Source: Craspedostauros australis (Eukaryota > Bacillariophyta > Bacillariophyceae > Mastogloiales > Achnanthaceae). Taken from it: a DNA stretch of 64,000 nt. Shown here in pieces: positions 33,865 through 62,848 of the stretch (position 1 is the stretch's first letter; every line of letters starts with the position of its first letter). The notes under the pieces were generated by a model that was given only the letters and a program-made list of their open reading frames with translations, was not told where the DNA came from and ran no database searches. The translations under genes were made by a program, and so were the position numbers. The stretch covers positions 186,001 through 250,000 of the forward strand of contig JAMXDE010000022.1 of assembly GCA_026770025.1 (NCBI GenBank), read 5' to 3'.

Positions 33865-33896
33865 GATTGATCGCAGAGTGAATTGTGGAAGACGTA

Positions 33897-33946
33897 CGAC
33901 CTCCAGGTCGCAGTTGATGCACTCACGATAACACTAGTTGTGGAGT
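33897..33946 (+). repeat. Left 50-bp terminal inverted repeat, copy 1
   Basis: It starts CGACCTCCAGGTCGCAG and ends GTTGTGGAGT. It pairs with 43459-43508 with a single mismatch at the second base. Confidence 0.97.
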
Positions 33947-34215
33947 GTTTTTTGAGTTTTACTCGTGATGAGTCGTGATAAAGTAGACTAAATTAGAGCA
34001 CACCCAAAACCATCCAAACAACTGCTTATGATGTTATATCTCAACAACGCACCATTTAAAATTAAAACTAGACAGTTCATTCGGACGCTTGGCTATCGTT
34101 TATTCTGAATATCTTAGTTAAATTTGTATGAACTTTATTTTTAATGTCGTTTTGGCTTGCTGTCTGTCAGGTGGTGGGTGCAAAAAATTCTCGATGGCAC
34201 CATGCTGCCCTACCT

Positions 34216-35345
34216 TCAGCACCCATGATCATCATTATCATCCCTGGCATTTTCACAATCTGCGCACCACACTGGCTCCGGATACCCCCCATCTATCCAC
34301 TCCATGAAGATCCTGCGCAGATAGCCGCATCTCATACTCCAAACTGTCCCTGCACTGAAACGCAGAATTTTCGAACACCCGATTCCGACACGGATGCCGT
34401 TCGGATTTGGATCCGTATCTCGTCGATACGATCCTTGCAGCTCCTTCACATGCCCCTCATGCGTTCCCACATTCTCTGGCGACACACTGATGTGTTCAGA
34501 ATGGGTGGGGCGCTCATACCTCCAAAGGTGCACCTCCATGTGATGATGCCATCATGATGTTTTTCCGACACCCAAAAAAATCCCTTTCGTGTGCATCCCA
34601 GGCTGCAGCCTCTTCCAGACCGTATCTGCGCAGGATACTTCGCCATGGCCATCTTGAGTTGATTCCTAACACATCTTGAATGGGTGGTTTGGCGATATGG
34701 GTGACTTTTCAATGGCACCCATCACCAGCGAAGTCACGTGATGTGTCCGCCGCCACCCGCCAAAAAACTCTTGCCCGCCACTTGTTTCTTGCGGAGGGCA
34801 CCTTCCAGGCCACCCCCGACCCTCAAACTTCGTGTGCATCTTCACCGTATCCTCTTGGATACGTCTTGCCCATCCATGGTCGTTGGAATGGCCTGTGCAT
34901 TCCAGGCAGAGACCATATCCAATGAGCATATTTTCCTCCGAATCGTGCCGTGTGCGCGTGGGCCTGCCACGGCCCCAAATAAGCCAAGATGACATCCCGC
35001 TCTCGCTCATCCACCAAACTTTCCATGGCGGTTCCGCCTATGCCCTCAGATCTTGCACTGGACCGCTGGTTGTGGCAGTGCCGTCGATGCCATTCGACAG
35101 CGCTTGTGGAGTTTTGTTGTGTTTCTCCATTGTCGTGTTGTTGTGTTGTGTTTGGTGTTCTCAAACAGTTTTTGCTGTTGGGGGCCATGGAGATTAACCA
35201 CAATTCTACCAAATGCGCCCATCAATGAGAACACTTTGCGAGTCCCGAATTGCACCTCCATTCCACAACGACACAGCGAAGGCACAAAATCCTCCTCACA
35301 AAATGGACAACGGAAACATTGCGCATCTGCGACGAGCTGCTGTTG
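34216..35345 (-). pseudogene. Possible Cys-rich coding remnant in copy 1
   Basis: The minus strand just before the hairpin region reads CFRCPFCEEDF, then SLCRCGMEVQF in one frame (about 35,245-35,320), a CxxCxxC...CxC pattern typical of zinc binding. Further downstream are shorter open stretches with CxxC pairs (GYGLCLEC near 34,900; VWCADCEN near 34,250) in other frames. No ATG or set of splice sites joins them convincingly. It is either a multi-exon accessory gene I cannot resolve or a decayed one. Both transposon copies carry it identically. Confidence 0.3.
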
Positions 35346-35504
35346 ATTCTCTGCTGCTTGTAGTCATAGCTTACACAGAATGTAGAATGACTGTGACCTT
35401 CCCACAAAGGAAAGAGTGGATGGTACAAGGCACCTTGTGACCATCCTCCTGTGTTGTTCATGCCGTTCTGTGGTGCGCTGCGCCGTGCTGCGCGTCAATG
35501 ACTG

Positions 35505-35560
35505 GTGCTGTGCTGTGCTGTGCTGTGCTGTGCTGTGCTGTGCTGTGCTGTGCTGTGCTG
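35505..35560. repeat. GTGCT pentanucleotide array, copy 1
   Basis: About eleven perfect TGCTG units. Copy 2 has the same number at 54845-54900. Confidence 0.95.
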
Positions 35561-35850
35561 TTCTCCTTGTGTGCCTGGTGTGCGTCGCGACCAGCCAATC
35601 TCGTACAATCAGCTTGCAACCTCTATTGACACACAGCTAGTATTCACCATGAGTTCCCTTGTTGTTAGACCATGTGTGCTGAATCAATCCAATCGTTGTT
35701 CGAGTTTTGAGTCCTTTGTGTCAGTCACACTTCGTTTCGAAAGATCCAAGAAAACTACTCGATAGAATTCGGAAAATGTGATGCGGGTTTCAGACCCAAG
35801 ACAAAATTAGGAAGATGATCCAAGAGGATCAAAGAGACTCTATTAGACCT

Positions 35851-35878
35851 CCAAACATGTGTCATTGCACATGTTTGG
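35851..35878. promoter_or_regulatory. Perfect hairpin upstream of the transposase, copy 1
   Basis: The arms CCAAACATGTG and CACATGTTTGG are 11 bp and perfect, around a 6-base loop. It lies 269 bp before the transposase ATG. It may be a protein-binding operator or an RNA hairpin in the leader; the sequence alone does not decide. Confidence 0.5.
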
Positions 35879-36146
35879 ACACAGATACACTAATTAGCAA
35901 GAGTAACCAGAAGTTTGGCATGGTTACAACACGATGGACAATGGTGAATAGCACCATTAGTGGAGCCAAGAAGTAGAAAACAGGAAGATGATGAGCTCTT
36001 ATTGATGAGCTCATAATCTCAACAAACTTAACTTTGTAAACCATCACTTCAAACAAGCACACACAATAACACAGTTCTATCAACCTTCACCAACATTGGA
36101 CGTAGTTGTATCATCCCGCAACCACTGAACTCTTCACCTCGCAAGC

Positions 36147-38693
36147 ATGCTGCGCGCTGGTGACTGTGTGAAGGTGGCATCCCACCAGAGCTCAAGCGGC
36201 AGGGTCCATGACCTGGGCGTATGTCATGTTGATTTTGCAATGAAGCAGACCACGGACGGCGCTACAGTCAAACGCAATGGGCCTCTTGCACCAGGAGAGG
36301 TGGCAATGGTCATGGTGACCCCAGTGATGGGGCAGAGCCGAATGTATGTTGTTCGCGAGGATCTGTGCACACCACACAGCCTCGCTACCTTCGCACGGAC
36401 TCGCACTGCTGGAGGCCTTGCTAAGCCTTCCCTCCTTTCTCCCCAGCATCACTCCGTCGCTGCCACGCGTGTCAACAACAAGGCTAAGCCCCCCACACCA
36501 TCCCCAACTACCACAGAATCGCAAGAAGCCAAAATCGCCGCTTTTCTCGAGGTCTCGCGGCGTCAGAAAGCAACAGCAATCGCCCAGCTCACGAACCAGA
36601 TGAAGAAAGGCGCGAAAACAAAAGGATGGTTGCGAAAGGATGGAGGGCATAGTATTGCTAAGCCTGGTAATCTTAGCAAGCGCCTTGACAAAGAAGACAA
36701 TCGGAACTACACTGTTCTCTATTTCAATTTGGGTGGGATTCCTGAACATGCAGAGTTGATTGCCCATGCATGGGGTATCAACCGCACCACAGTGGGGCGC
36801 AACATTGTGAAATTCCAAACGGAGACGCTCGAATGCAAGAAGCGAAGTGACGCAGGCAGCAGCATCTTCACCTGCCCCATCAAGCAACGACAGTACTTCA
36901 CGCAGCGCGCAGCCTTTGAGAAACAACTACGTCTTCGACATCCAGAGCAACAGTTCAAGAACAACGAAATTGATTCTGCCTATGCCTCTGCTTCACCGGA
37001 AGAGCTGGCATCCGCAAAAGTGCTGGCTGATTTGTGGTTGGAGCGTGGTCCCTTCCTGCAATTTGAGCTCCAGGATGTGTTGCGACGGTGCAATGGCGCA
37101 ATCTCGTGGGACAGAATTGCATGGAAACTGGCAGGCAGCGGAAACCCGCAAGTCGTTGGTCCGAAGTGTATTCGCAAATTCGTCATGGGATTGGAAGGCA
37201 GTGAGTACCGTTCTACAACAATACTCCCTCTGATCAATGGCACCACTACAGCAAAGCGCGACATCTGGGCTCAGGACTTCTGTGTGTTCTGGGAATCAGC
37301 TGAGCTGTTTGAGAATACGCAAGTTGTCCTTGTCCACATGGACGAAAAGTGGTTCTACTCCATTGTCGCTCGCATGCATCTGAAACATGTGCCCCAGATG
37401 GGAGTTAAGCCTGTGAAGCAGACTGTGCATCACAAGTGTCACATTGACAAGACCATGGCAATTGCATCAACAGCATTTGCCCCAACAAATAACTGTTTTG
37501 CGAAAGGAGGAAAGGCGTATAAGGTGAACTTCGAACGTGTTGGGCGCATGGTCCGAGCGCAGAAGACCACGTACAAGCGAACTTGGGTCTCGCCGACCAA
37601 GTACAAGCACCTTCCTGATCCCGAGAAAATCTCTCGCAAGAAGGGTGAACTGTACTTCCAACCACTGGAAATCACGGGCAGCAAGGAAACAGATGGTCAT
37701 CGTGTTAAGCCCAAGCCGAAGTACAGCCTCAAGAAATTCTTCCGCGAAAAAGAACTCCCCGCACTGGATTCGCTCGCCAGCAAAATCAAGGCCGAAACCG
37801 GAAAGAACGTGGTGATTCGGTACCAGATGGATGGCGCAGGGCCACACAGAGACACGGAGCTACTTAGATTCATCAACAAGGAGTTCGACAGTCGCGGATG
37901 GCACTTACGACTGCAACCACCAAATTCTCCCATCACGAATGTGAAAGACGATGCGATATTCCCAGCGATGTCAAAACACGTGTCAGCGTATCAAGGTGAG
38001 CACCATGGAAGCCGATTGCTTACCACTGAGGCATTGTGGAATGCTTGTGGAACCTGTTGGAAACAATTCAAGCTGGACAAGGTGGCTAGCGCGTATGTTC
38101 GCCACAATCAGATTGCCTACGCAATTTGTGCTGCAAAAGGAGGTGACGAATTTGTGACGGAGCGCAAGGGACTGCACATGAATGTGCGGAAACAAACGTC
38201 CACGGAATTCGACAAAGAGGGCAACAAGATCGGCGTTACCGTGTCTCACACGGACTTCGTGTTGGAGGAGGATGAGGCTACCCGCGCGACCACCAACAAA
38301 CCAACTGCAACAGACAACAAAGGCAAATCAGCTGACTTCAAATACGCCAAGCCCGACATCAAAGGTATGTACGATGATGCGCTCAAGGTGATGGCTGTCA
38401 GTGGACTGCAGTGCCTGAAAACGAATCTGCCAACAACCAGCAGCCTCATTCCGTTGCTGGAGAAGCAAATCGTTGCGACAACCAGAGCCAACGAGGAGGC
38501 TGAGCAACAGAAGAAAGACGAGAAGAGAAAGAAGCAACCCAGCAAGAGCAAAGCCAACATCATTGAGCCTTGCAACAACAACAGCAAAGCCAAAGCAGCA
38601 CCCACCATGAACACATTCGAAGTGGCCATGTTCGTTGGCAAGGACGAGCATCACAGCAAAGCAGAGCAGGATACCAACACAGCAGAGATGTAG
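36147..38693 (+). CDS. Tc1/mariner-type transposase, copy 1
   Basis: 848 aa from a clear ATG, single exon. The N-terminal 150 residues are basic and Pro-rich. A helix-turn-helix follows (ELIAHAWGINRTTVGRNI, about residues 206-223) that should bind the inverted repeats. The catalytic core has VHMDEKWFY (D399), RYQMDGAGPH (D562) and LQPPNSPITNVKD (D601). DEKWF and PNSP are hallmarks of plant- and protist-type mariner-like transposases. The last two acids are separated by 38 residues (39 if D602 is used), close to the DD39D of plant mariner-like elements. A 160-residue insert between the first two acids and a Lys-rich tail of about 200 residues (KKDEKRKKQ) make it nearly twice the usual length. 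The frame is intact with all three acids, so it could be active. It would excise and insert the surrounding element at TA in the nucleus. Confidence 0.92.
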   Translation: MLRAGDCVKVASHQSSSGRVHDLGVCHVDFAMKQTTDGATVKRNGPLAPGEVAMVMVTPVMGQSRMYVVREDLCTPHSLATFARTRTAGGLAKPSLLSPQHHSVAATRVNNKAKPPTPSPTTTESQEAKIAAFLEVSRRQKATAIAQLTNQMKKGAKTKGWLRKDGGHSIAKPGNLSKRLDKEDNRNYTVLYFNLGGIPEHAELIAHAWGINRTTVGRNIVKFQTETLECKKRSDAGSSIFTCPIKQRQYFTQRAAFEKQLRLRHPEQQFKNNEIDSAYASASPEELASAKVLADLWLERGPFLQFELQDVLRRCNGAISWDRIAWKLAGSGNPQVVGPKCIRKFVMGLEGSEYRSTTILPLINGTTTAKRDIWAQDFCVFWESAELFENTQVVLVHMDEKWFYSIVARMHLKHVPQMGVKPVKQTVHHKCHIDKTMAIASTAFAPTNNCFAKGGKAYKVNFERVGRMVRAQKTTYKRTWVSPTKYKHLPDPEKISRKKGELYFQPLEITGSKETDGHRVKPKPKYSLKKFFREKELPALDSLASKIKAETGKNVVIRYQMDGAGPHRDTELLRFINKEFDSRGWHLRLQPPNSPITNVKDDAIFPAMSKHVSAYQGEHHGSRLLTTEALWNACGTCWKQFKLDKVASAYVRHNQIAYAICAAKGGDEFVTERKGLHMNVRKQTSTEFDKEGNKIGVTVSHTDFVLEEDEATRATTNKPTATDNKGKSADFKYAKPDIKGMYDDALKVMAVSGLQCLKTNLPTTSSLIPLLEKQIVATTRANEEAEQQKKDEKRKKQPSKSKANIIEPCNNNSKAKAAPTMNTFEVAMFVGKDEHHSKAEQDTNTAEM

Positions 38694-38807
38694 CTGCAAA
38701 TCAAAGTAGTAGTATTATATGTTATAGGCACACCTGTGATTGGAGTGCCTGTGTGCACATCGTCTGTTTGATGGCATGGAGGATTGTGATGTGTGATGTG
38801 TGATGTG

Positions 38808-38850
38808 TGGTGTGTGGTGTGGTGTGGTGTGGTGTGGTGTGGTGTGGTGT
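38808..38850. repeat. GGTGT pentanucleotide array, copy 1
   Basis: About eight GGTGT units. Copy 2 has the same length at 58148-58190. Confidence 0.9.
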
Positions 38851-39315
38851 GTGATGTTTGTTTTGTGTTTTGTGACGAGTGGTGTGAATTGTGTGACGCG
38901 GACCGTATTTTTGTGTCGTGAATGGTGTGCGTCGTGGAGCCATCGCGTCGTGGAGCCGGCACGTTGTGTTGTGCCGTTCTGGTCGGAAAATTTCCATCCG
39001 AACCACACACAAAAACGCTCCAAGGCCTCAACTGCGTCGATCGGAGCGCCAGCACAATCGGTGTGTGTCGCACAAACCAATCGAATGGCAAAGCCTCCTC
39101 TTGGTTGGTACCGCACTCGTACATCTGTACCACATCGTGCCATGCCAGTATTCCGCTTTCTCTTCATCACACATGTGCAACCCTCGCGATCGTTGCTGCC
39201 ATCAAGTCCAAGCGTCTGTACTCGTCACTGGAGCACCAACGATGCATCCTCTGATCATTCATCTCTGCTCGTGCCCTGCCGACGGCGCTGCCACTAGCAC
39301 AATCGTCATGTATTG

Positions 39316-39345
39316 GTAGAGTAGAGTAGAGTAGAGTAGAGTAGA
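39316..39345. repeat. GTAGA pentanucleotide array, copy 1
   Basis: Six GTAGA units. Copy 2 is identical at 58656-58685. Confidence 0.9.
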
Positions 39346-40032
39346 GCGCAACGAATCCACACCATACCATGCTCATATGCTATACTATGCTATGTTGTGA
39401 TGTGCTAGTGCAGCTCCTATAATATGTTACATTCGATGAGCTATTCCGTCGTCTGCGTGCTGAAGACGAACACGCAGGACGCCCCCTTCTGCAGATACAG
39501 ACGTTCTGGGTAACCAAACGTGGCATCACCGAGTCTTCGTTTTAGTTCGCACATAACGTTTCCTCGCTGAGCTGGCCTCGAACAAGACAAGTTTAGAATA
39601 CTCGACGAGTTGTACGACAAGAACGCAAGTGCACTCGTATGGATGTCTGGACGGAGTGGTTGAAACTGTAGTCAAGTTGTGTGGTTCATCTTCGGATATG
39701 CTCCCTTGAAGTCATGGGCAAAGGTACCATATCATGCTATACTAGCACATGGAAGTACGAGAATGCACAACTGGCAAGGCGCAGCACAGCACAGGATGCA
39801 AACGATTGTTCCATGACTGTATTGTAACATGTATTCTATTCTTCGATCATCGTGCCATATGCAACGATGGAGTTGAGTTGAGCCATTTGTTCTGAATATG
39901 GATCGCATCCATGCTGTCTTGCCGCTGCGGAAGATGCGACCGTATGAGCATGGGCGTACATGTGGATACGTCGTGATGTTTGTACTCCCACTCCTGTTCG
40001 CGCCCTGAGAGTGCGGTCAGCCATTTCATTTT

Positions 40033-42754
40033 TCAAGAGCATGCATCGTTATTTTGTCCAGGGCAGTCGTTGGATGGGCTGTCGATGGTGTAGGTCCAGC
40101 CAGGAGAGCCGCTGCACATGTCTGTCGCCATGCAGTCCTGACAGTTGCTTGGAGCCGCGCAGGTGTTCGCCGCCACGACCAGATCATCAACCGCCAAGTT
40201 GGAGTTTGCAACACCGTTACAGCTGTCTTGTGACAAGCATGTGCCACTGCCGATGGTGATACAACCGAGAGTCTTGAACGGGCCAGCGTGAACATTCTGA
40301 CTAGCGCGTTGTCCCTCACAAGCGTTCATCCCCACGTCGATGTTGGCAAGCGTAGGTGTGGCGATACTGGGAGACTGGTCGGCGCAAATTTCAAGGCCTT
40401 TGCAGCCGTCCCCGCCATTTCATCCTGCGTGTTGGGTCCAGATGTTACCATAGATGTTCTGCCCAAGATTCTCGCAGCTGTTTGTGCTGGTTCATGCGGC
40501 TGGCCCGATGATCTGGTAGCCAATGGTGGCCGTGGCACTGGGAGGGCTGGAAAAAGATCCAAGATTCTTGCAGGATTTTGGTCCCAGACAGCTGCTGAGG
40601 ATGATGGCATCCTTCGAAACCTCTTCGCAGGAACTATCACTTGCACATGAGTCCAGGGTGATGATGATGTCGCCCCTGAGAGTCCAACTGAGAGTTCCTC
40701 AGCGGCAGGCCCCGCCCACAGCACCGCATCTCGTGGATAGGCTTGCGGCGTTCGCAGTGAGAAGGATGCCATCGCCTTCGAGAGCAGTGAGGATGGCTGC
40801 GATTGCTTGGGGGTCATTCTTGATGCGATCAAATCGTACCTGCGCCTGTTGCTGCGACGTCCGGCTGCCTTGGTCGTCATCGCATCCGAAGATGCTTTTC
40901 ACGAACCTGTCCTTGTTCATTGGGAGAGACTCGTTGTCGTTGACGAATTGTGCGCATGTGCCCACATCATCATCGCAGAGGACGACTTGTCTGGAGGTGA
41001 AGCCCGCAGTAACCTCCCCAGCCTCATTCAAGCAAAGGGTCTGCAGGGTGGTCTTGTTGATGGTTGGGGAGTTTGTTGGAACAAAAGTTGACAGATCGGA
41101 TGGCTGCTCTGTCGGAATCATCGTTGGGGTATCGCTTGCCAGCGGAGAAGGGGGCGAAAGTTGGGCAATCTGTTGGGCGTTGGTCTTTGTTGATGCAGAA
41201 TTGATCGACCCTTTTCACTGGTTGGGTCGCCATCGACGTCTTTGGGGCAGGCGACGGCAGCATCGTAGATAATGAAGACTTCGTCGCTGTCGCAGTTGGT
41301 TTTTGTCATGCATTCGTAGCATGCGCCGCTGCTGTCACAGCCATAGTCTGGCACAATGATGTCAGTTGTCACTGAGTCACCGAATCCCAATCCCGGGCAA
41401 GCGTAGGCTGCGGCGCAGGCATTGTCGCCGATGCTCAAGCTGCCCTGAATCTTCGCAGGTGATGGCAACGAGTGCATGTGCAGTCGTAGTAACCGCTCGC
41501 ATGTGCTGCGGTGCATGCATATTCACCAAGGCATGCGTTGAACCCAATTCTGACGTGGCTCTGGGAACGGCTGGGCCCGTACTGTTCAACGCGGTAGCCA
41601 ACGCTCGCACAGGCGTAGGGTCCAACGCAGGCGCCGCTTTGTATGATGGCGTCTCTGTAGGAGTATGTGCCAGCAAGGACGCAGGAAAGATAATCAGTGC
41701 AGGCCAGTTGACCAATGAAGGTGACACCGTATGTTGGGTGAGGACCATAGCAATTGGAAACATAAAGAGAGTTCATGCCGGCGCATACCCCTTTGCTGGT
41801 ACAGGATGAAGCCAGGACCAATGTGTTTCGTCCCATCCTGTCGCAAGATCCAGACCCAATGCAGGCAGTGGTGGCAATGGTCATGAAACTGTAACCGTCG
41901 GCGCTGGTACAGTGATACTTCTCTGCACAGCTTGGAGCCCCAGCGTCCTGGCACATGTAGTAGATGTCCTCGCCACCGAGAGCTGTGAGCAGAGTGGTGC
42001 CGGCGGCGGACAATAGCTTCAGCTCCTCAGCTAGCAAGGGGCTGGACGCATATTGGTTGAATAGCTTGTGCGCATCCCCCTTGGTCAAGAGGCCAGCGCA
42101 TGCAAAGTAATTCTGCAATCCTGGTGTGCTTCGAACAGCAGTGACGGCCTCGCGGTACGATGTCTTGGATGGATTGCAGATGATGGTCTTTGGCTCGGAT
42201 GCCTCCGGCGGAAAGCATGGCGGCGCAACATCTGGCTCGCAGGCCACGGAGATGCTGGAATCAAATGCAAACGAGATGGTTGTCGGTGCAGATGTAGGCC
42301 CTGATGTCGGCATGCTGGTTGCTCCGCCTGTTGGCTGGTCGGTCGGTGATGAGGTAGGCCTCAGGGTTGGATTGCTGGTTGGCAAGGCAACTGGCCGCCC
42401 AGTTGGCCTTGAAGTTGGTGCCCCAGTTGGTGGCAAGGTTGGTGTAGAAGTCGGTGTTGTCGTCATTATTCAGGCCAACGCAGTTGGTGCCAATGTAGGA
42501 GAGCTGGTAGGCGAACTGGTTGGTGCCACACTGGGATTGCTGCTTGGATTGTTGGACGGTGCTCCCGTCTGTTTGTTACCCTTGACGTTCTTTGGAATGA
42601 AACCGCCGTCGCCCTTCAGCAGTCTGGTTGCCTGCATCGCAACATGAAGTTCGTTGGTTGGGTCAATCAATCTATGGCCGCGAAGGATGGCATCGATTGT
42701 CTTGCATTCGGCGAGCAAGATCGCCGTGATGGTAACTGCCTTGAAGTTGAGCAT
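40033..42754 (-). pseudogene. Passenger: decayed Pro-Thr/Cys-rich secreted protein gene, copy 1
   Basis: The minus strand starts at ATG 42754 with a good signal peptide (MLNFKAVTITAILLAE). It runs into a Pro-Thr repeat (SSPTSSPTLAPT), meets an in-frame TGA at 42470-42472, and continues in the same frame from ATG 42466 as TTTPTSTPTLPPTGAPTS and on. A Cys-rich stretch follows with ACVGPYACASVGY and ACLGEYACTAA modules, like the secreted host protein at 10.7-12.2 kb. After 41435 homologous modules go on in other frames (GDNACAAAYACPGLG, then CLNEAGEV, then SCEEVSKDAIILSSC, and CITIGSGTCLSQDSCNG ending at 40033). I count at least two stops and three frame changes that no good splice sites explain. 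It is therefore a captured host-type gene that has decayed. Copy 2 carries the same lesions. Confidence 0.75.
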
Positions 42755-43458
42755 CTTCGGTTTCCACGTGATCTTTGCTTGGTTGTGGTTTGCTGGAATG
42801 CTGTTTCTTTCCTCTCGAATTTGGACGAGCGGTTTACTATTGCTCGTATTTGCTTCGAGGCTCCTTCACACTCGTGGCTGGATCGGTACTTTTGGTTGTG
42901 TTGATGTCGTCCCTTGCGCCTTGGCGTTCATGCAGGAGGATCGTGCTGCACGGTTGCGCAGGATGCATACCGTACCACGTTGATCATGTGCGCACCGCAT
43001 GTTATCGGAGAAGAAAAATGGAAACAGCAACAGTGGCAAGAATGTGGATTGGCTGAGCTGTGCATGCATCATTCACAGGATTGGCAGCCGAGGTGAAGAC
43101 GATGTTGTGGTGATTGGCGAAGCACTGTCGTCTGCGTCGGACAGCTCGCCAATGCGCTTCGTCGTATTCCGAGACGATTGGCTGTTGCTGGTTTCCATTG
43201 TGAGACTGGTCAACATGGAGTGTTGTTGGCTGTCCTGGCCTGGCACATTCTGTTGTCGCCGCGCGCAGTCATCATCTTGTCTTGCGGAGGAAGAGTCACA
43301 CGATGTCTCTTCCTCTGTTGTGACTCGTTTTTCATGACGTGGAATACGTTCCCTGTGACGTAGAAGACGGATCAGCGAGAGCAAACACACAATAGCTCTA
43401 AATATCCAATCGCCGTTTCTCCCAAAAGCAAGCAAACCAGTGACAACAAGGGGCCAAA
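42755..43458. other. Right arm of copy 1, no gene seen
   Basis: 700 bp between the passenger gene start and the right inverted repeat. It may contain the original promoter of the captured gene. Nothing else is supported. Confidence 0.55.
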
Positions 43459-43508
43459 ACTCCACAACTAGTGTTATCGTGAGTGCATCAACTGCGACCT
43501 GGAGGTAG
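43459..43508 (-). repeat. Right 50-bp terminal inverted repeat, copy 1
   Basis: It starts ACTCCACAAC and ends CTGCGACCTGGAGGTAG, followed by the TA duplication. Confidence 0.97.
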
Positions 43509-43510
43509 TA

Positions 43511-44616
43511 CGCAAGAAGTTCGTCGTCCGAGACAGACGATGGCTTTACGCAACGACTAGATCAAATAAATGGACAGAGTACGTAGATGTTGCAGTTCGT
43601 GAATGGTCGCCGCAAGCGATCTCCAGCTCGGATGCTCATCAGAGTGGCGAGAGTCCCCGCCTGACGTATGACAGACAGACTAATAAGGTGATACATTGTG
43701 CCTTTCGCGTGACAAAACACGATTGCTGTGTGTTGTCCGTCTCGAGTCTGGTACGACATTGTTCTTCACCATTCCATAATGGTAAACCGTCCTAATCAGA
43801 GCCAACACAAATACGATCAACCACGATTCCATTTGTTGGCATCGTTTTCGTGAGCAACGAAGAGGCGCATCTTTGTCGATCGAGCACATCGCGGTTATCG
43901 TGAAATCATCATTCGTGTCAAAATGGAACATGATTCCACCACACAAACCGTCGCGCACGACTCGGCCACGATGGCCACACGCCCAAAAAGGAAGGCGCGG
44001 AACGGCGCCGAACGCCTGAACTGCCACCGGGTCTGCACGCAAAGATGCCTGCCAACACCCACGAAAACTCACACCTTTCCCTCACCTTCTCTGTTTGGCG
44101 AAAACTAACCATTGTTCAACGAACCGCGAGTAAACGCCTTTTGTGGCGCCAACGCTGGAGGTGTCGAATGACACACACAATACGGTATCGCATTGCTGTG
44201 TTGCGAAGTTTGGCATTCACATGTCTTTGGTTGGTAAACGACCAATAGCTGGACACATCCTCATTGCGAGATCGGCAAGACCGCAGAGCCACAGAGATCA
44301 CAAAGCGACTGTTGGAGATGCACCAAGCATAAATCTGAGCATAACGACAAGCACAACCACAGACACAACGATAATCACACCGTCAAACACGAGTACGGAC
44401 TCGGATAGAGAAAAGAGTATCGGGAGACAGAGACTTTCTCACAAAGTTGGATTTGCACCACCCAAAAGCCACAGCATGATGAACGCATCGCCGACTACGG
44501 AAGGCTCAATGGAGACAATGGAGACAATGCCAACCACGCAAGCGATGACTATGAACGCAAGGAGGCGAAGGAGTCGGGGCAACAGGAGGCGGTCCAACCA
44601 ACCTGCGAGTACTCTC
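43511..44616. other. Intergenic region upstream of the protease gene
   Basis: 1.1 kb between transposon copy 1 and the protease start. The protease frame stays open upstream to about 44143 without protein-like features, so I place the start at 44617. No other gene is seen. Confidence 0.55.
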
Positions 44617-52300: not shown

Positions 52301-52324
52301 GAGCCTTCGGTTCCCTTTCGGTAA
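49311..52324 (+). CDS. ERMARD-like protein (DUF4209), two exons
   Basis: Exons 49311-51927 and 52161-52324 give 926 aa. The 233-bp intron (GTAAGT...ACAG) joins STIG to TFIQNNPDRAV and keeps the frame. The N terminus is Arg/Ser/Ala-rich and could be a targeting sequence. The match to ERMARD is by three spaced motifs: LLLPSPGLNLRNLLWHGF (about residue 310), LLENALRVDW (about 440) and NVRATLSHGLLDD (about 530). These are the paired Arg-Asn-x-His-Gly motifs typical of DUF4209. Human ERMARD is an ER membrane-associated protein linked to RNA degradation; its biochemical activity is poorly defined. In this protein hydrophobic spans are weak, so membrane association is not shown. The last third is helical with no recognised domain. 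It is unrelated to its neighbours. Confidence 0.72.
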
Positions 52325-53234
52325 CACATGAATCGATGGATGTTTCAACCGATTGATTGGGCCATCCATGAACTGCAAGCTACGGGTATGCATATGTGCA
52401 ACGTATCCGATCGTCACCGGTTACTTCCAGGAATCTTGCAAAATTCGCGCCGTCCAATACAACTACTCTGTTCAACTTGGTATAGCACGATCTGCAATCG
52501 GGCGGAAACAGATATGGCGCCAAAAGGCCCCACAGCAGAGGACCACGGCAAAGGGCTGAGGGAATCGCCAATGGTCATCACATCGATAGATCGTCTTGCA
52601 CATCAGCGAACCGGATGAGATGTGCAAGTGTGACACGGTGGCGTGGGAATGCAAACGAAGGCGCGTCGCGCGAGGCTCCTCAAAGTTGATGGGATAGTCA
52701 AAGCCCAACCATCAAATTGTGACGATGCCCATGAAAGAACACGACAGAAGATCATCACGACTCAATCTCGACCAACCAACACACGATCGACCATCACCAA
52801 TCCCGTTCTTTCTGCACTTGTGCCTGAGATGTGTCACCAATGACATCGAGAGTTGTGCTGACGCCCAGGCGCGATCATGTGCTGGTGTTTGGCACAGACA
52901 CCTTTTTGCTTTGGTGTGGCATCGCATGGTTCACAGATCCGTCTTCACCTCCTCGTGTGGAGTGTTTGCAGGCCTGGTATGTTCGAGTTGCTGAATCTCC
53001 AAGATCCTACCGACCACAGTGAGTGGAGTCGATGCCAGTTTGCACGGTTATCGCGTCGCCAAATTAGTAGTTAGTCTAACAATGGAAGATAGCCGTGTGA
53101 CACCAGATTCGATGAGAGATCGTGGATGATTTGTGACAAATCCTGCAGGCGTGCCAGACTAGCTCAAGACTCTTTTCGAATGTAAATTTGTCTGTAGCAT
53201 GTCGCATATGTGTCGCTCTACCTATTGACAGACA
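52325..53234. other. Intergenic region before transposon copy 2
   Basis: 0.9 kb with no supportable gene. Copy 2 landed here about 910 bp after the ERMARD-like stop, so it breaks no visible coding region. Confidence 0.6.
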
Positions 53235-53236
53235 TA

Positions 53237-53286
53237 CGACCTCCAGGTCGCAGTTGATGCACTCACGATAACACTAGTTGTGGAGT
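53237..53286 (+). repeat. Left 50-bp terminal inverted repeat, copy 2
   Basis: Same sequence as 33897-33946, pairing with 62799-62848. Confidence 0.97.
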
Positions 53287-53555
53287 GTTTTTTGAGTTTT
53301 ACTCGTGATGAGTCGTGATAAAGTAGACTAAATTAGAGCACACCCAAAACCATCCAAACAACTGCTTATGATGTTATATCTCAACAACGCACCATTTAAA
53401 ATTAAAACTAGACAGTTCATTCGGACGCTTGGCTATCGTTTATTCTGAATATCTTAGTTAAATTTGTATGAACTTTATTTTTAATGTCGTTTTGGCTTGC
53501 TGTCTGTCAGGTGGTGGGTGCAAAAAATTCTCGATGGCACCATGCTGCCCTACCT

Positions 53556-54685
53556 TCAGCACCCATGATCATCATTATCATCCCTGGCATTTTCACAATC
53601 TGCGCACCACACTGGCTCCGGATACCCCCCATCTATCCACTCCATGAAGATCCTGCGCAGATAGCCGCATCTCATACTCCAAACTGTCCCTGCACTGAAA
53701 CGCAGAATTTTCGAACACCCGATTCCGACACGGATGCCGTTCGGATTTGGATCCGTATCTCGTCGATACGATCCTTGCAGCTCCTTCACATGCCCCTCAT
53801 GCGTTCCCACATTCTCTGGCGACACACTGATGTGTTCAGAATGGGTGGGGCGCTCATACCTCCAAAGGTGCACCTCCATGTGATGATGCCATCATGATGT
53901 TTTTCCGACACCCAAAAAAATCCCTTTCGTGTGCATCCCAGGCTGCAGCCTCTTCCAGACCGTATCTGCGCAGGATACTTCGCCATGGCCATCTTGAGTT
54001 GATTCCTAACACATCTTGAATGGGTGGTTTGGCGATATGGGTGACTTTTCAATGGCACCCATCACCAGCGAAGTCACGTGATGTGTCCGCCGCCACCCGC
54101 CAAAAAACTCTTGCCCGCCACTTGTTTCTTGCGGAGGGCACCTTCCAGGCCACCCCCGACCCTCAAACTTCGTGTGCATCTTCACCGTATCCTCTTGGAT
54201 ACGTCTTGCCCATCCATGGTCGTTGGAATGGCCTGTGCATTCCAGGCAGAGACCATATCCAATGAGCATATTTTCCTCCGAATCGTGCCGTGTGCGCGTG
54301 GGCCTGCCACGGCCCCAAATAAGCCAAGATGACATCCCGCTCTCGCTCATCCACCAAACTTTCCATGGCGGTTCCGCCTATGCCCTCAGATCTTGCACTG
54401 GACCGCTGGTTGTGGCAGTGCCGTCGATGCCATTCGACAGCGCTTGTGGAGTTTTGTTGTGTTTCTCCATTGTCGTGTTGTTGTGTTGTGTTTGGTGTTC
54501 TCAAACAGTTTTTGCTGTTGGGGGCCATGGAGATTAACCACAATTCTACCAAATGCGCCCATCAATGAGAACACTTTGCGAGTCCCGAATTGCACCTCCA
54601 TTCCACAACGACACAGCGAAGGCACAAAATCCTCCTCACAAAATGGACAACGGAAACATTGCGCATCTGCGACGAGCTGCTGTTG
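53556..54685 (-). pseudogene. Possible Cys-rich coding remnant in copy 2
   Basis: Identical to 34216-35345 in copy 1, including the CFRCPFC motif near 54,650. Same uncertainty. Confidence 0.3.
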
Positions 54686-54844
54686 ATTCTCTGCTGCTTG
54701 TAGTCATAGCTTACACAGAATGTAGAATGACTGTGACCTTCCCACAAAGGAAAGAGTGGATGGTACAAGGCACCTTGTGACCATCCTCCTGTGTTGTTCA
54801 TGCCGTTCTGTGGTGCGCTGCGCCGTGCTGCGCGTCAATGACTG

Positions 54845-54900
54845 GTGCTGTGCTGTGCTGTGCTGTGCTGTGCTGTGCTGTGCTGTGCTGTGCTGTGCTG
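54845..54900. repeat. GTGCT pentanucleotide array, copy 2
   Basis: Same unit number as 35505-35560. Confidence 0.95.
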
Positions 54901-55190
54901 TTCTCCTTGTGTGCCTGGTGTGCGTCGCGACCAGCCAATCTCGTACAATCAGCTTGCAACCTCTATTGACACACAGCTAGTATTCACCATGAGTTCCCTT
55001 GTTGTTAGACCATGTGTGCTGAATCAATCCAATCGTTGTTCGAGTTTTGAGTCCTTTGTGTCAGTCACACTTCGTTTCGAAAGATCCAAGAAAACTACTC
55101 GATAGAATTCGGAAAATGTGATGCGGGTTTCAGACCCAAGACAAAATTAGGAAGATGATCCAAGAGGATCAAAGAGACTCTATTAGACCT

Positions 55191-55218
55191 CCAAACATGT
55201 GTCATTGCACATGTTTGG
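55191..55218. promoter_or_regulatory. Perfect hairpin upstream of the transposase, copy 2
   Basis: Same 11-bp arms and 6-base loop as 35851-35878. Confidence 0.5.
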
Positions 55219-55486
55219 ACACAGATACACTAATTAGCAAGAGTAACCAGAAGTTTGGCATGGTTACAACACGATGGACAATGGTGAATAGCACCATTAG
55301 TGGAGCCAAGAAGTAGAAAACAGGAAGATGATGAGCTCTTATTGATGAGCTCATAATCTCAACAAACTTAACTTTGTAAACCATCACTTCAAACAAGCAC
55401 ACACAATAACACAGTTCTATCAACCTTCACCAACATTGGACGTAGTTGTATCATCCCGCAACCACTGAACTCTTCACCTCGCAAGC

Positions 55487-58033
55487 ATGCTGCGCGCTGG
55501 TGACTGTGTGAAGGTGGCATCCCACCAGAGCTCAAGCGGCAGGGTCCATGACCTGGGCGTATGTCATGTTGATTTTGCAATGAAGCAGACCACGGACGGC
55601 GCTACAGTCAAACGCAATGGGCCTCTTGCACCAGGAGAGGTGGCAATGGTCATGGTGACCCCAGTGATGGGGCAGAGCCGAATGTATGTTGTTCGCGAGG
55701 ATCTGTGCACACCACACAGCCTCGCTACCTTCGCACGGACTCGCACTGCTGGAGGCCTTGCTAAGCCTTCCCTCCTTTCTCCCCAGCATCACTCCGTCGC
55801 TGCCACGCGTGTCAACAACAAGGCTAAGCCCCCCACACCATCCCCAACTACCACAGAATCGCAAGAAGCCAAAATCGCCGCTTTTCTCGAGGTCTCGCGG
55901 CGTCAGAAAGCAACAGCAATCGCCCAGCTCACGAACCAGATGAAGAAAGGCGCGAAAACAAAAGGATGGTTGCGAAAGGATGGAGGGCATAGTATTGCTA
56001 AGCCTGGTAATCTTAGCAAGCGCCTTGACAAAGAAGACAATCGGAACTACACTGTTCTCTATTTCAATTTGGGTGGGATTCCTGAACATGCAGAGTTGAT
56101 TGCCCATGCATGGGGTATCAACCGCACCACAGTGGGGCGCAACATTGTGAAATTCCAAACGGAGACGCTCGAATGCAAGAAGCGAAGTGACGCAGGCAGC
56201 AGCATCTTCACCTGCCCCATCAAGCAACGACAGTACTTCACGCAGCGCGCAGCCTTTGAGAAACAACTACGTCTTCGACATCCAGAGCAACAGTTCAAGA
56301 ACAACGAAATTGATTCTGCCTATGCCTCTGCTTCACCGGAAGAGCTGGCATCCGCAAAAGTGCTGGCTGATTTGTGGTTGGAGCGTGGTCCCTTCCTGCA
56401 ATTTGAGCTCCAGGATGTGTTGCGACGGTGCAATGGCGCAATCTCGTGGGACAGAATTGCATGGAAACTGGCAGGCAGCGGAAACCCGCAAGTCGTTGGT
56501 CCGAAGTGTATTCGCAAATTCGTCATGGGATTGGAAGGCAGTGAGTACCGTTCTACAACAATACTCCCTCTGATCAATGGCACCACTACAGCAAAGCGCG
56601 ACATCTGGGCTCAGGACTTCTGTGTGTTCTGGGAATCAGCTGAGCTGTTTGAGAATACGCAAGTTGTCCTTGTCCACATGGACGAAAAGTGGTTCTACTC
56701 CATTGTCGCTCGCATGCATCTGAAACATGTGCCCCAGATGGGAGTTAAGCCTGTGAAGCAGACTGTGCATCACAAGTGTCACATTGACAAGACCATGGCA
56801 ATTGCATCAACAGCATTTGCCCCAACAAATAACTGTTTTGCGAAAGGAGGAAAGGCGTATAAGGTGAACTTCGAACGTGTTGGGCGCATGGTCCGAGCGC
56901 AGAAGACCACGTACAAGCGAACTTGGGTCTCGCCGACCAAGTACAAGCACCTTCCTGATCCCGAGAAAATCTCTCGCAAGAAGGGTGAACTGTACTTCCA
57001 ACCACTGGAAATCACGGGCAGCAAGGAAACAGATGGTCATCGTGTTAAGCCCAAGCCGAAGTACAGCCTCAAGAAATTCTTCCGCGAAAAAGAACTCCCC
57101 GCACTGGATTCGCTCGCCAGCAAAATCAAGGCCGAAACCGGAAAGAACGTGGTGATTCGGTACCAGATGGATGGCGCAGGGCCACACAGAGACACGGAGC
57201 TACTTAGATTCATCAACAAGGAGTTCGACAGTCGCGGATGGCACTTACGACTGCAACCACCAAATTCTCCCATCACGAATGTGAAAGACGATGCGATATT
57301 CCCAGCGATGTCAAAACACGTGTCAGCGTATCAAGGTGAGCACCATGGAAGCCGATTGCTTACCACTGAGGCATTGTGGAATGCTTGTGGAACCTGTTGG
57401 AAACAATTCAAGCTGGACAAGGTGGCTAGCGCGTATGTTCGCCACAATCAGATTGCCTACGCAATTTGTGCTGCAAAAGGAGGTGACGAATTTGTGACGG
57501 AGCGCAAGGGACTGCACATGAATGTGCGGAAACAAACGTCCACGGAATTCGACAAAGAGGGCAACAAGATCGGCGTTACCGTGTCTCACACGGACTTCGT
57601 GTTGGAGGAGGATGAGGCTACCCGCGCGACCACCAACAAACCAACTGCAACAGACAACAAAGGCAAATCAGCTGACTTCAAATACGCCAAGCCCGACATC
57701 AAAGGTATGTACGATGATGCGCTCAAGGTGATGGCTGTCAGTGGACTGCAGTGCCTGAAAACGAATCTGCCAACAACCAGCAGCCTCATTCCGTTGCTGG
57801 AGAAGCAAATCGTTGCGACAACCAGAGCCAACGAGGAGGCTGAGCAACAGAAGAAAGACGAGAAGAGAAAGAAGCAACCCAGCAAGAGCAAAGCCAACAT
57901 CATTGAGCCTTGCAACAACAACAGCAAAGCCAAAGCAGCACCCACCATGAACACATTCGAAGTGGCCATGTTCGTTGGCAAGGACGAGCATCACAGCAAA
58001 GCAGAGCAGGATACCAACACAGCAGAGATGTAG
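55487..58033 (+). CDS. Tc1/mariner-type transposase, copy 2
   Basis: 848 aa, identical in sequence to the copy 1 transposase, with the same helix-turn-helix and the D399, D562 and D601 catalytic acids. Two intact source genes within 20 kb mean that either copy could mobilise both, as well as shorter derivatives elsewhere that share the 50-bp ends. Confidence 0.92.
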   Translation: MLRAGDCVKVASHQSSSGRVHDLGVCHVDFAMKQTTDGATVKRNGPLAPGEVAMVMVTPVMGQSRMYVVREDLCTPHSLATFARTRTAGGLAKPSLLSPQHHSVAATRVNNKAKPPTPSPTTTESQEAKIAAFLEVSRRQKATAIAQLTNQMKKGAKTKGWLRKDGGHSIAKPGNLSKRLDKEDNRNYTVLYFNLGGIPEHAELIAHAWGINRTTVGRNIVKFQTETLECKKRSDAGSSIFTCPIKQRQYFTQRAAFEKQLRLRHPEQQFKNNEIDSAYASASPEELASAKVLADLWLERGPFLQFELQDVLRRCNGAISWDRIAWKLAGSGNPQVVGPKCIRKFVMGLEGSEYRSTTILPLINGTTTAKRDIWAQDFCVFWESAELFENTQVVLVHMDEKWFYSIVARMHLKHVPQMGVKPVKQTVHHKCHIDKTMAIASTAFAPTNNCFAKGGKAYKVNFERVGRMVRAQKTTYKRTWVSPTKYKHLPDPEKISRKKGELYFQPLEITGSKETDGHRVKPKPKYSLKKFFREKELPALDSLASKIKAETGKNVVIRYQMDGAGPHRDTELLRFINKEFDSRGWHLRLQPPNSPITNVKDDAIFPAMSKHVSAYQGEHHGSRLLTTEALWNACGTCWKQFKLDKVASAYVRHNQIAYAICAAKGGDEFVTERKGLHMNVRKQTSTEFDKEGNKIGVTVSHTDFVLEEDEATRATTNKPTATDNKGKSADFKYAKPDIKGMYDDALKVMAVSGLQCLKTNLPTTSSLIPLLEKQIVATTRANEEAEQQKKDEKRKKQPSKSKANIIEPCNNNSKAKAAPTMNTFEVAMFVGKDEHHSKAEQDTNTAEM

Positions 58034-58147
58034 CTGCAAATCAAAGTAGTAGTATTATATGTTATAGGCACACCTGTGATTGGAGTGCCTGTGTGCACAT
58101 CGTCTGTTTGATGGCATGGAGGATTGTGATGTGTGATGTGTGATGTG

Positions 58148-58190
58148 TGGTGTGTGGTGTGGTGTGGTGTGGTGTGGTGTGGTGTGGTGT
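58148..58190. repeat. GGTGT pentanucleotide array, copy 2
   Basis: Same length as 38808-38850. Confidence 0.9.
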
Positions 58191-58655
58191 GTGATGTTTG
58201 TTTTGTGTTTTGTGACGAGTGGTGTGAATTGTGTGACGCGGACCGTATTTTTGTGTCGTGAATGGTGTGCGTCGTGGAGCCATCGCGTCGTGGAGCCGGC
58301 ACGTTGTGTTGTGCCGTTCTGGTCGGAAAATTTCCATCCGAACCACACACAAAAACGCTCCAAGGCCTCAACTGCGTCGATCGGAGCGCCAGCACAATCG
58401 GTGTGTGTCGCACAAACCAATCGAATGGCAAAGCCTCCTCTTGGTTGGTACCGCACTCGTACATCTGTACCACATCGTGCCATGCCAGTATTCCGCTTTC
58501 TCTTCATCACACATGTGCAACCCTCGCGATCGTTGCTGCCATCAAGTCCAAGCGTCTGTACTCGTCACTGGAGCACCAACGATGCATCCTCTGATCATTC
58601 ATCTCTGCTCGTGCCCTGCCGACGGCGCTGCCACTAGCACAATCGTCATGTATTG

Positions 58656-58685
58656 GTAGAGTAGAGTAGAGTAGAGTAGAGTAGA
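58656..58685. repeat. GTAGA pentanucleotide array, copy 2
   Basis: Same six units as 39316-39345. Confidence 0.9.
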
Positions 58686-59372
58686 GCGCAACGAATCCAC
58701 ACCATACCATGCTCATATGCTATACTATGCTATGTTGTGATGTGCTAGTGCAGCTCCTATAATATGTTACATTCGATGAGCTATTCCGTCGTCTGCGTGC
58801 TGAAGACGAACACGCAGGACGCCCCCTTCTGCAGATACAGACGTTCTGGGTAACCAAACGTGGCATCACCGAGTCTTCGTTTTAGTTCGCACATAACGTT
58901 TCCTCGCTGAGCTGGCCTCGAACAAGACAAGTTTAGAATACTCGACGAGTTGTACGACAAGAACGCAAGTGCACTCGTATGGATGTCTGGACGGAGTGGT
59001 TGAAACTGTAGTCAAGTTGTGTGGTTCATCTTCGGATATGCTCCCTTGAAGTCATGGGCAAAGGTACCATATCATGCTATACTAGCACATGGAAGTACGA
59101 GAATGCACAACTGGCAAGGCGCAGCACAGCACAGGATGCAAACGATTGTTCCATGACTGTATTGTAACATGTATTCTATTCTTCGATCATCGTGCCATAT
59201 GCAACGATGGAGTTGAGTTGAGCCATTTGTTCTGAATATGGATCGCATCCATGCTGTCTTGCCGCTGCGGAAGATGCGACCGTATGAGCATGGGCGTACA
59301 TGTGGATACGTCGTGATGTTTGTACTCCCACTCCTGTTCGCGCCCTGAGAGTGCGGTCAGCCATTTCATTTT

Positions 59373-62094
59373 TCAAGAGCATGCATCGTTATTTTGTCCA
59401 GGGCAGTCGTTGGATGGGCTGTCGATGGTGTAGGTCCAGCCAGGAGAGCCGCTGCACATGTCTGTCGCCATGCAGTCCTGACAGTTGCTTGGAGCCGCGC
59501 AGGTGTTCGCCGCCACGACCAGATCATCAACCGCCAAGTTGGAGTTTGCAACACCGTTACAGCTGTCTTGTGACAAGCATGTGCCACTGCCGATGGTGAT
59601 ACAACCGAGAGTCTTGAACGGGCCAGCGTGAACATTCTGACTAGCGCGTTGTCCCTCACAAGCGTTCATCCCCACGTCGATGTTGGCAAGCGTAGGTGTG
59701 GCGATACTGGGAGACTGGTCGGCGCAAATTTCAAGGCCTTTGCAGCCGTCCCCGCCATTTCATCCTGCGTGTTGGGTCCAGATGTTACCATAGATGTTCT
59801 GCCCAAGATTCTCGCAGCTGTTTGTGCTGGTTCATGCGGCTGGCCCGATGATCTGGTAGCCAATGGTGGCCGTGGCACTGGGAGGGCTGGAAAAAGATCC
59901 AAGATTCTTGCAGGATTTTGGTCCCAGACAGCTGCTGAGGATGATGGCATCCTTCGAAACCTCTTCGCAGGAACTATCACTTGCACATGAGTCCAGGGTG
60001 ATGATGATGTCGCCCCTGAGAGTCCAACTGAGAGTTCCTCAGCGGCAGGCCCCGCCCACAGCACCGCATCTCGTGGATAGGCTTGCGGCGTTCGCAGTGA
60101 GAAGGATGCCATCGCCTTCGAGAGCAGTGAGGATGGCTGCGATTGCTTGGGGGTCATTCTTGATGCGATCAAATCGTACCTGCGCCTGTTGCTGCGACGT
60201 CCGGCTGCCTTGGTCGTCATCGCATCCGAAGATGCTTTTCACGAACCTGTCCTTGTTCATTGGGAGAGACTCGTTGTCGTTGACGAATTGTGCGCATGTG
60301 CCCACATCATCATCGCAGAGGACGACTTGTCTGGAGGTGAAGCCCGCAGTAACCTCCCCAGCCTCATTCAAGCAAAGGGTCTGCAGGGTGGTCTTGTTGA
60401 TGGTTGGGGAGTTTGTTGGAACAAAAGTTGACAGATCGGATGGCTGCTCTGTCGGAATCATCGTTGGGGTATCGCTTGCCAGCGGAGAAGGGGGCGAAAG
60501 TTGGGCAATCTGTTGGGCGTTGGTCTTTGTTGATGCAGAATTGATCGACCCTTTTCACTGGTTGGGTCGCCATCGACGTCTTTGGGGCAGGCGACGGCAG
60601 CATCGTAGATAATGAAGACTTCGTCGCTGTCGCAGTTGGTTTTTGTCATGCATTCGTAGCATGCGCCGCTGCTGTCACAGCCATAGTCTGGCACAATGAT
60701 GTCAGTTGTCACTGAGTCACCGAATCCCAATCCCGGGCAAGCGTAGGCTGCGGCGCAGGCATTGTCGCCGATGCTCAAGCTGCCCTGAATCTTCGCAGGT
60801 GATGGCAACGAGTGCATGTGCAGTCGTAGTAACCGCTCGCATGTGCTGCGGTGCATGCATATTCACCAAGGCATGCGTTGAACCCAATTCTGACGTGGCT
60901 CTGGGAACGGCTGGGCCCGTACTGTTCAACGCGGTAGCCAACGCTCGCACAGGCGTAGGGTCCAACGCAGGCGCCGCTTTGTATGATGGCGTCTCTGTAG
61001 GAGTATGTGCCAGCAAGGACGCAGGAAAGATAATCAGTGCAGGCCAGTTGACCAATGAAGGTGACACCGTATGTTGGGTGAGGACCATAGCAATTGGAAA
61101 CATAAAGAGAGTTCATGCCGGCGCATACCCCTTTGCTGGTACAGGATGAAGCCAGGACCAATGTGTTTCGTCCCATCCTGTCGCAAGATCCAGACCCAAT
61201 GCAGGCAGTGGTGGCAATGGTCATGAAACTGTAACCGTCGGCGCTGGTACAGTGATACTTCTCTGCACAGCTTGGAGCCCCAGCGTCCTGGCACATGTAG
61301 TAGATGTCCTCGCCACCGAGAGCTGTGAGCAGAGTGGTGCCGGCGGCGGACAATAGCTTCAGCTCCTCAGCTAGCAAGGGGCTGGACGCATATTGGTTGA
61401 ATAGCTTGTGCGCATCCCCCTTGGTCAAGAGGCCAGCGCATGCAAAGTAATTCTGCAATCCTGGTGTGCTTCGAACAGCAGTGACGGCCTCGCGGTACGA
61501 TGTCTTGGATGGATTGCAGATGATGGTCTTTGGCTCGGATGCCTCCGGCGGAAAGCATGGCGGCGCAACATCTGGCTCGCAGGCCACGGAGATGCTGGAA
61601 TCAAATGCAAACGAGATGGTTGTCGGTGCAGATGTAGGCCCTGATGTCGGCATGCTGGTTGCTCCGCCTGTTGGCTGGTCGGTCGGTGATGAGGTAGGCC
61701 TCAGGGTTGGATTGCTGGTTGGCAAGGCAACTGGCCGCCCAGTTGGCCTTGAAGTTGGTGCCCCAGTTGGTGGCAAGGTTGGTGTAGAAGTCGGTGTTGT
61801 CGTCATTATTCAGGCCAACGCAGTTGGTGCCAATGTAGGAGAGCTGGTAGGCGAACTGGTTGGTGCCACACTGGGATTGCTGCTTGGATTGTTGGACGGT
61901 GCTCCCGTCTGTTTGTTACCCTTGACGTTCTTTGGAATGAAACCGCCGTCGCCCTTCAGCAGTCTGGTTGCCTGCATCGCAACATGAAGTTCGTTGGTTG
62001 GGTCAATCAATCTATGGCCGCGAAGGATGGCATCGATTGTCTTGCATTCGGCGAGCAAGATCGCCGTGATGGTAACTGCCTTGAAGTTGAGCAT
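59373..62094 (-). pseudogene. Passenger: decayed Pro-Thr/Cys-rich secreted protein gene, copy 2
   Basis: Identical to 40033-42754: signal peptide at 62094, Pro-Thr repeats, in-frame TGA at 61810-61812, Cys-Gly-Ala-Cys modules and the same later frame changes. The shared lesions show that the gene was already broken before the two copies separated. Confidence 0.75.
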
Positions 62095-62798
62095 CTTCGG
62101 TTTCCACGTGATCTTTGCTTGGTTGTGGTTTGCTGGAATGCTGTTTCTTTCCTCTCGAATTTGGACGAGCGGTTTACTATTGCTCGTATTTGCTTCGAGG
62201 CTCCTTCACACTCGTGGCTGGATCGGTACTTTTGGTTGTGTTGATGTCGTCCCTTGCGCCTTGGCGTTCATGCAGGAGGATCGTGCTGCACGGTTGCGCA
62301 GGATGCATACCGTACCACGTTGATCATGTGCGCACCGCATGTTATCGGAGAAGAAAAATGGAAACAGCAACAGTGGCAAGAATGTGGATTGGCTGAGCTG
62401 TGCATGCATCATTCACAGGATTGGCAGCCGAGGTGAAGACGATGTTGTGGTGATTGGCGAAGCACTGTCGTCTGCGTCGGACAGCTCGCCAATGCGCTTC
62501 GTCGTATTCCGAGACGATTGGCTGTTGCTGGTTTCCATTGTGAGACTGGTCAACATGGAGTGTTGTTGGCTGTCCTGGCCTGGCACATTCTGTTGTCGCC
62601 GCGCGCAGTCATCATCTTGTCTTGCGGAGGAAGAGTCACACGATGTCTCTTCCTCTGTTGTGACTCGTTTTTCATGACGTGGAATACGTTCCCTGTGACG
62701 TAGAAGACGGATCAGCGAGAGCAAACACACAATAGCTCTAAATATCCAATCGCCGTTTCTCCCAAAAGCAAGCAAACCAGTGACAACAAGGGGCCAAA
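62095..62798. other. Right arm of copy 2, no gene seen
   Basis: Matches 42755-43458. Nothing is supported in it. Confidence 0.55.
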
Positions 62799-62848
62799 AC
62801 TCCACAACTAGTGTTATCGTGAGTGCATCAACTGCGACCTGGAGGTAG
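62799..62848 (-). repeat. Right 50-bp terminal inverted repeat, copy 2
   Basis: Same sequence as 43459-43508, followed by the TA duplication. Confidence 0.97.

Follow-up and report, generated by a model that had tools for sequence, protein, structure and literature searches.

A stretch of 64,000 nucleotides from the diatom Craspedostauros australis (assembly GCA_026770025.1, contig JAMXDE010000022.1, positions 186,001 to 250,000 of the forward strand; hereafter the window) contains two identical intervals of 9.6 kb. We consider it quite likely that these intervals are copies of one Tc1/mariner-type DNA transposon, nearest to the PlantMar (DD39D) branch, which has been enlarged by non-coding DNA and by at least one host-like gene that is now dead. 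The coordinates of the element and its parts are collected in Table 1.

Two identical copies at TA sites

A preliminary description of this DNA had claimed that the two copies are identical, in the same orientation and 19,340 bp apart. A position-by-position comparison bore this out, with mismatches at 0 of 9,612 positions and the same start-to-start distance. The identity includes a tandem repeat of GTGCT (11.4 units), and because it does, it suggests that the two copies are very young, given a correct assembly. As had also been described, each copy is bordered immediately by TA at either end. Together with the unrelated flanks, this agrees with the Tc1/mariner habit of inserting at TA and duplicating it, as judged from the borders of the occupied sites. 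The base composition of the element (0.517, vs 0.522 upstream) and its codon use (correlation with the surroundings 0.82) resemble those of the host, which would fit a resident nuclear element.

We next compared the sites themselves. When the flanks of each copy were joined as if the site were empty (about 300 bp per side), the best alignment of one site with the other had an E-value of only 0.12. The flanks are therefore unrelated, and a simple segmental duplication of both intervals is ruled out, in line with the preliminary description. Its statement that the flanks differ holds for the joined flanks as a whole, but not immediately around the target, where the two sites have the same base at 13 of 16 positions, counting the TA (AGAC[G/A]TA[C/A]GCAAGA[A/C]G). 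Outside the elements the window has 1,022 TA sites, and of 200,000 random pairs of these, 329 agreed at 13 or more of 16 bases. With only two sites, we read this as a hint that the target preference of the element may reach beyond TA. Again for these two sites, such a preference is more likely than insertion into copies of one repeat, an explanation that we rejected because the joined flanks are alike over only about 16 bp around the TA. We also rejected the disruption of a gene by the element, as no clear split gene was found among the 12 stop-to-stop frames that cross the two joined sites. Two of these frames exceed 120 codons: a 270-codon frame at site 2, the downstream part of which had no Pfam match, and a 130-codon minus-strand frame at site 1 that contains a decayed gene of a local family, with just 15 codons lying beyond the junction.

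The lack of a single difference across 9,612 bp, an 11.4-unit microsatellite included, could also be the mark of an assembly product. In that case the element itself would be genuine, and the way its copies are paired would come from a misjoin through a 9.6-kb repeat, or else consensus polishing would have made the copies identical. The TA at the four borders is uninformative here, because any copy of such an element is flanked by TA and a dinucleotide cannot prove that two flanks pair. For copy A, however, members of the local gene family lie on both sides (one decayed, at 33436-33831; two open, at 46561-47613 and 47890-48783), which argues that its two flanks belong together. This argument covers copy A, and we found no such argument for copy B. 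On balance, we regard an assembly product as quite improbable.

Table 1. Positions in the window of the two element copies, their parts and their target sites
Feature	Position	Strand	Description
Element copy A	33897..43508	+	9,612 bp; same as copy B at 9,612/9,612 positions; TA on both sides
Element copy B	53237..62848	+	9,612 bp; orientation as copy A; 19,340 bp downstream
TA left of copy A	33895..33896		present in the sequence
TA right of copy A	43509..43510		present in the sequence
TA left of copy B	53235..53236		present in the sequence
TA right of copy B	62849..62850		present in the sequence
Compared target-site bases	33890-33896 with 43511-43519; 53230-53236 with 62851-62859		13/16 agree
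Left terminal inverted repeat, copy A	33897..33946	+	tip CGACCTCCAG, 7/10 to Stowaway CTCCCTCCRT
Right terminal inverted repeat, copy A	43459..43508	-	tip CTACCTCCAG, 8/10 to the Stowaway consensus
Left terminal inverted repeat, copy B	53237..53286	+	identical to copy A
Right terminal inverted repeat, copy B	62799..62848	-	identical to copy A
Left arm	33947..36146		2.2 kb; no recognised gene in a Pfam scan of 4 frames
Transposase frame, copy A	36147..38693	+	848 codons, ATG to TAG, uninterrupted
Transposase frame, copy B	55487..58033	+	same as the copy A frame
Passenger, copy A	~40033..42865	-	decayed gene; product cysteine-rich, with PT repeats
Passenger, copy B	59373..62205	-	same pseudogene as in copy A

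The putative transposase

The intact 848-amino-acid frame of the preliminary description is present in both copies. Motif alignment points to D399 (in HMDEKWFY), D562 (in QMDGAGPH) and D601 (in NVKDD) as putative catalytic residues. The third acidic motif is QPPNSPITNVKDD, in which either D601 or its neighbour D602 may have the catalytic role. The strongest comparison of this protein was with a plant mariner-like domain. Aligned with hhalign, the transposase core and the plant sequence gave an E-value of 4.4e-7 and a score of 56.4, with 31% identity over 194 columns, vs a top score of 21.5 among 100 shuffles of the core and of 19.7 among 20 control frames (other frames of the window of at least 250 amino acids, including the passenger frame of both copies). 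The motifs HMDEKWFY, MDGAGPH and QPPNSP..NV.D occur in the same order and register as in the plant sequence, with the aspartates in register. The second and third aspartates are 38 residues apart when counted to the aligned D601, or 39 when counted to D602, and the plant sequence has 39; the first and second are 162 residues apart vs 123 in the plant sequence. We treat this alignment as a strong lead to the probable family rather than as a test of it.

Several results weigh against a placement near PlantMar. The strongest protein comparison depends on an unverified plant sequence, which in Pfam matched DDE_3 only weakly, at an E-value of 0.0041, below the cut-off. The D2-D3 spacing is 38, not the 39 of PlantMar, unless D602 is catalytic. 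The whole 848-codon frame matched no Pfam family at an E-value of 1, and five sub-stretches searched at an E-value of 10 matched only Prok_Ub (0.25) and MOZART2 (0.21), nothing DDE-like. Against PDB, the whole protein had no relative at an E-value of 10, and the core matched only a serpin (0.096). A profile of Mos1 and SETMAR had its best match on the D2-D3 segment, but the score of 17.2 was not significant, being exceeded by the best of 60 shuffles (18.2) and by the best of the 20 control frames (21.0). Two AlphaFold models made without relatives, with a mean predicted local distance difference test (pLDDT) score of 38.8 and 38.4, were too poor for use. Finally, neither a further copy, full or deleted, nor an unoccupied site is known. 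The assignment to Tc1/mariner with a DDD transposase in the preliminary description agrees with the TA sites, the inverted repeats and the DDD-type frame. Since Pfam, PDB and Mos1/SETMAR gave nothing significant, membership in PlantMar is likely rather than proven.

We also looked further afield for relatives. A bacterial IS630-like fragment scored 22.5 over only 17 columns against the transposase, the best of the 20 control frames scoring 16.2. Among pattern candidates, 0 of 3 in viral contigs and 0 of 27 in genome contigs were relatives, and plasmids gave no match. A motif scan of viral contigs returned 10 loci, none of them transposase-like by eye, and a second motif returned no viral locus. 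In genome contigs, the second motif was found at three loci, of which one is IS630-like in look (L011), one is unrelated (L012) and one showed no frame (L013). DDE_3 had no match in the one viral record searched.

Terminal inverted repeats and their tips

The inverted repeats have the length of 50 nt given in the preliminary description, but they are not perfect: the ends pair at 49 of 50 nt, the sole mismatch being at position 2 (G vs T), and the likeness is lost a few bases further in. The element therefore has the terminal inverted repeats of a Tc1/mariner transposon. Within the window, the 50-nt end was found at the four places expected of two copies and nowhere else, the closest other match being 13 nt long (E 0.063), and a 45-nt stretch of the end had no match in viral contigs.

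The Stowaway consensus tip is CTCCCTCCRT (PMC1925063). Tips of the form CTCCCTCC, shared with Stowaway, are usual for PlantMar-type elements without being a strict definition, and those of the present element are similar to the consensus, not identical, at 8/10 and 7/10. By chance, matches of at least 8/10 and at least 7/10 would have probabilities of 0.0007 and 0.006, figures that assume a fixed place and equal bases, for two near-identical ends that are not independent and a consensus chosen after the tips were known. With the TA included, the ends of the bamboo element Ppmar2NA read TA-CTCCCTCCGTCCC (PMC6696609), and that of the present element reads TA-CTACCTCCAGGTC. The tips lend support to a probable plant-type mariner, and do so independently of the unverified plant protein.

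The left tip, CGACCTCCAGGTCG (33897-33910), is nearly palindromic and is predicted to form a 5-bp hairpin as single-stranded DNA; for a 64-nt stretch with this hairpin the z-score was -2.07, and 8 of 200 shuffles folded as well.

The tips and the transposase bear on a further explanation, that the element is a DDE/D transposon which inserts at TA but belongs to another superfamily (pogo-like, Sailor-like or undescribed) and came to resemble PlantMar by convergence of short motifs. The lack of a significant Pfam or PDB match would fit such an origin, as would the length of the transposase and its D1-D2 stretch of 162 residues against 123 in the plant sequence. The order and register of the motifs are PlantMar-like, however, if measured against the unverified plant sequence, and the Stowaway-like tips agree with PlantMar without using that sequence at all. 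For Sailor in particular, the usual TATA target and the DD82E motif (PMC8533490) are a poor fit. We therefore think another superfamily unlikely.

Extra DNA and a dead passenger gene

The element carries about 2.2 kb of DNA to the left of the transposase and about 4.8 kb to its right. In the left arm, which includes the GTGCT repeat (35505-35561), one of the four frames searched against Pfam matched nothing at an E-value of 1 and the other three matched nothing better than 0.096, below the cut-off. The right side contains the one recognisable passenger, so the element does carry gene sequence, as the preliminary description had it, but the passenger is a pseudogene, with four in-frame TGA codons (42470-42472, 40699-40701, 40492-40494 and 40420-40422) and two frame changes. 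PT repeats were found by Pfam in three of its six pieces (E 6.6e-7, 0.0012 and 0.58, only the first above the cut-off), and two of the six show a weak likeness to DUF7640 (E 0.0052 and 0.014, below the cut-off). The pieces would together make up one gene, in which a single break could be that of an intron. Because the decay is the same in both copies, the passenger was dead before copies A and B separated.

We rejected three other readings of this region. An alternative genetic code would not account for the passenger, since TGA is the closing stop of 8 of 13 frames (that of the transposase and 12 more) and the passenger has two frame changes as well. Nor was the passenger copied from a host gene of the window, as tblastn at 1e-3 matched just the two element copies. 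On the plus strand, a frame facing the PT repeats (42126-42644) resembled LrgB at an E-value of 0.0074, below the cut-off, and was taken as spurious. A host frame at 10749-12164 (-) encodes a DUF7640 cysteine-rich protein (E 6.5e-31) and shares only the DUF7640 likeness with the passenger, which may descend from this host family. The same host frame has an internal 108-bp tandem repeat of 2.1 copies at 10947-11171.

Because the transposase frame is open while the neighbouring passenger has decayed, selection on the transposase is suggested, less strongly if the passenger was already dead at uptake. This comparison bears on whether the element is non-autonomous or dead and mobilised by the enzyme of another element, its 848-codon frame being open through recent descent and yet non-functional. 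The assignment of the catalytic aspartates from motifs alone and the decay of the passenger are consistent with a dead element. Against it stands an uninterrupted transposase frame beside a passenger of similar length with four stops and two frame changes, an argument from selection that is likewise weaker for a passenger dead at uptake. We judge a dead element to have little likelihood, about as little as an assembly product.

A proposed history of the element

The preferred reading of a PlantMar-like transposon suggests how the two copies may have arisen. The element would have grown to 9.6 kb by taking up one or more host-like genes together with DNA that codes for nothing. The 50-bp inverted ends are most likely bound by its 848-amino-acid protein, and excision would most likely use the three aspartates D399, D562 and D601 or D602. 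The excised element would then be inserted at a TA, with duplication of that dinucleotide. Most likely one copy was the source of the other, or a third copy the source of both, in a recent short-range jump after which the donor copy would have been retained through repair or replication. The direction and the mechanism of copying are thus our interpretation, as is the current activity of the element, described as apparent in the preliminary description, which we infer from the identity of the copies and the open frame.

Comparison with known systems

The size of the element, called unusual in the preliminary description, is indeed so. Tc1/mariner elements are described as typically 1.3-2.5 kb, a Sailor of 6,979 bp being termed "colossal" (PMC8533490), and PlantMar elements as 2-6 kb, with a DD39D motif and with flowering plants and a few oomycetes as hosts (PMC7325037). 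At 9,612 bp the present element falls outside these ranges, that of PlantMar being usual rather than defining, and it is larger than the published examples of PlantMar, Sailor and Ectocarpus Mariner-Tc1 with which we compared it. In the open-licence literature, searched mostly at the level of title and abstract, we found no PlantMar-type element of about 9 kb, which is not evidence of absence. The text consulted of a review of giant transposons mentions neither mariner nor Tc1 (PMC6431247).

With PlantMar and its kin (Osmar5, Ppmar1/2 and the Stowaway miniature inverted-repeat transposable elements, MITEs), the present element shares the TA target, tips at 7-8/10 to CTCCCTCCRT and, against the unverified plant sequence, a probable DDD core with motifs in register. 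It differs in its length, its 848-amino-acid transposase, its longer D1-D2 stretch, a D2-D3 spacing of 38 (39 with D602) and the extra DNA and pseudogene aboard. The oomycete hosts of PlantMar would fit a stramenopile host here. The mariner elements of the DD34D type (Mos1, SETMAR) likewise share the TA target, the motifs DEKW and D-x-A-x-x-H by eye and a best profile match on D2-D3, whereas the profile score is no better than in controls, the spacing is 38 vs 34 and the present element is far larger. Large members (up to 6,979 bp) and stramenopile hosts are features of Sailor (DD82E), but Sailor is described as mostly duplicating TATA and has other motifs (PMC8533490). The Mariner-Tc1 families of Ectocarpus show such elements in a photosynthetic stramenopile, but the autonomous brown-alga element named there is 4.4 kb (PMC12477816).

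Neighbourhood of the element

Both open members of the local gene family lie on the minus strand, share 61% protein identity and match no Pfam family above the cut-off. The decayed third member (-), just left of copy A, ends at 33717 rather than 33831 with another query and has three stops in its aligned part. Upstream of copy B, an 874-codon frame (49311-51935, +) that matches DUF4209 (E 2.1e-9) ends about 1.3 kb short of the element. Near the start of the window, a 72-bp unit is repeated in tandem about 30 times (2301-4462, 88% matches), and part of an 854-codon frame (2924-5488) reads through this array; in that frame Pfam reports a protealysin propeptide (E 2.6e-18, with no single stretch passing), probably a repeat artefact. 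The gene content of the window, with PT repeats, AAA_16 proteins, a trypsin, a guanylate cyclase domain and a weak match to TPR, would suit a diatom or another stramenopile.

Significance

It is possible, though we would call it doubtful, that the element represents an oversized PlantMar lineage in photosynthetic stramenopiles (diatoms or their kin) that is still moving and taking up host genes, and that would be the algal side of a family that may have given plants their mariner elements and Stowaway MITEs by transfer. Where plants acquired PlantMar has been left open in the literature, the authors concerned favouring an element of oomycetes, fungal pathogens or viruses as the source of a transfer (PMC7325037). 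With a relative that moved recently in a further lineage, probably of stramenopiles, that origin would become testable by a phylogenetic tree. The element also bears on the size limit of TA-inserting cut-and-paste elements that are still moving, for which the efficiency of transposition is held to drop the further apart the ends lie (PMC6431247).

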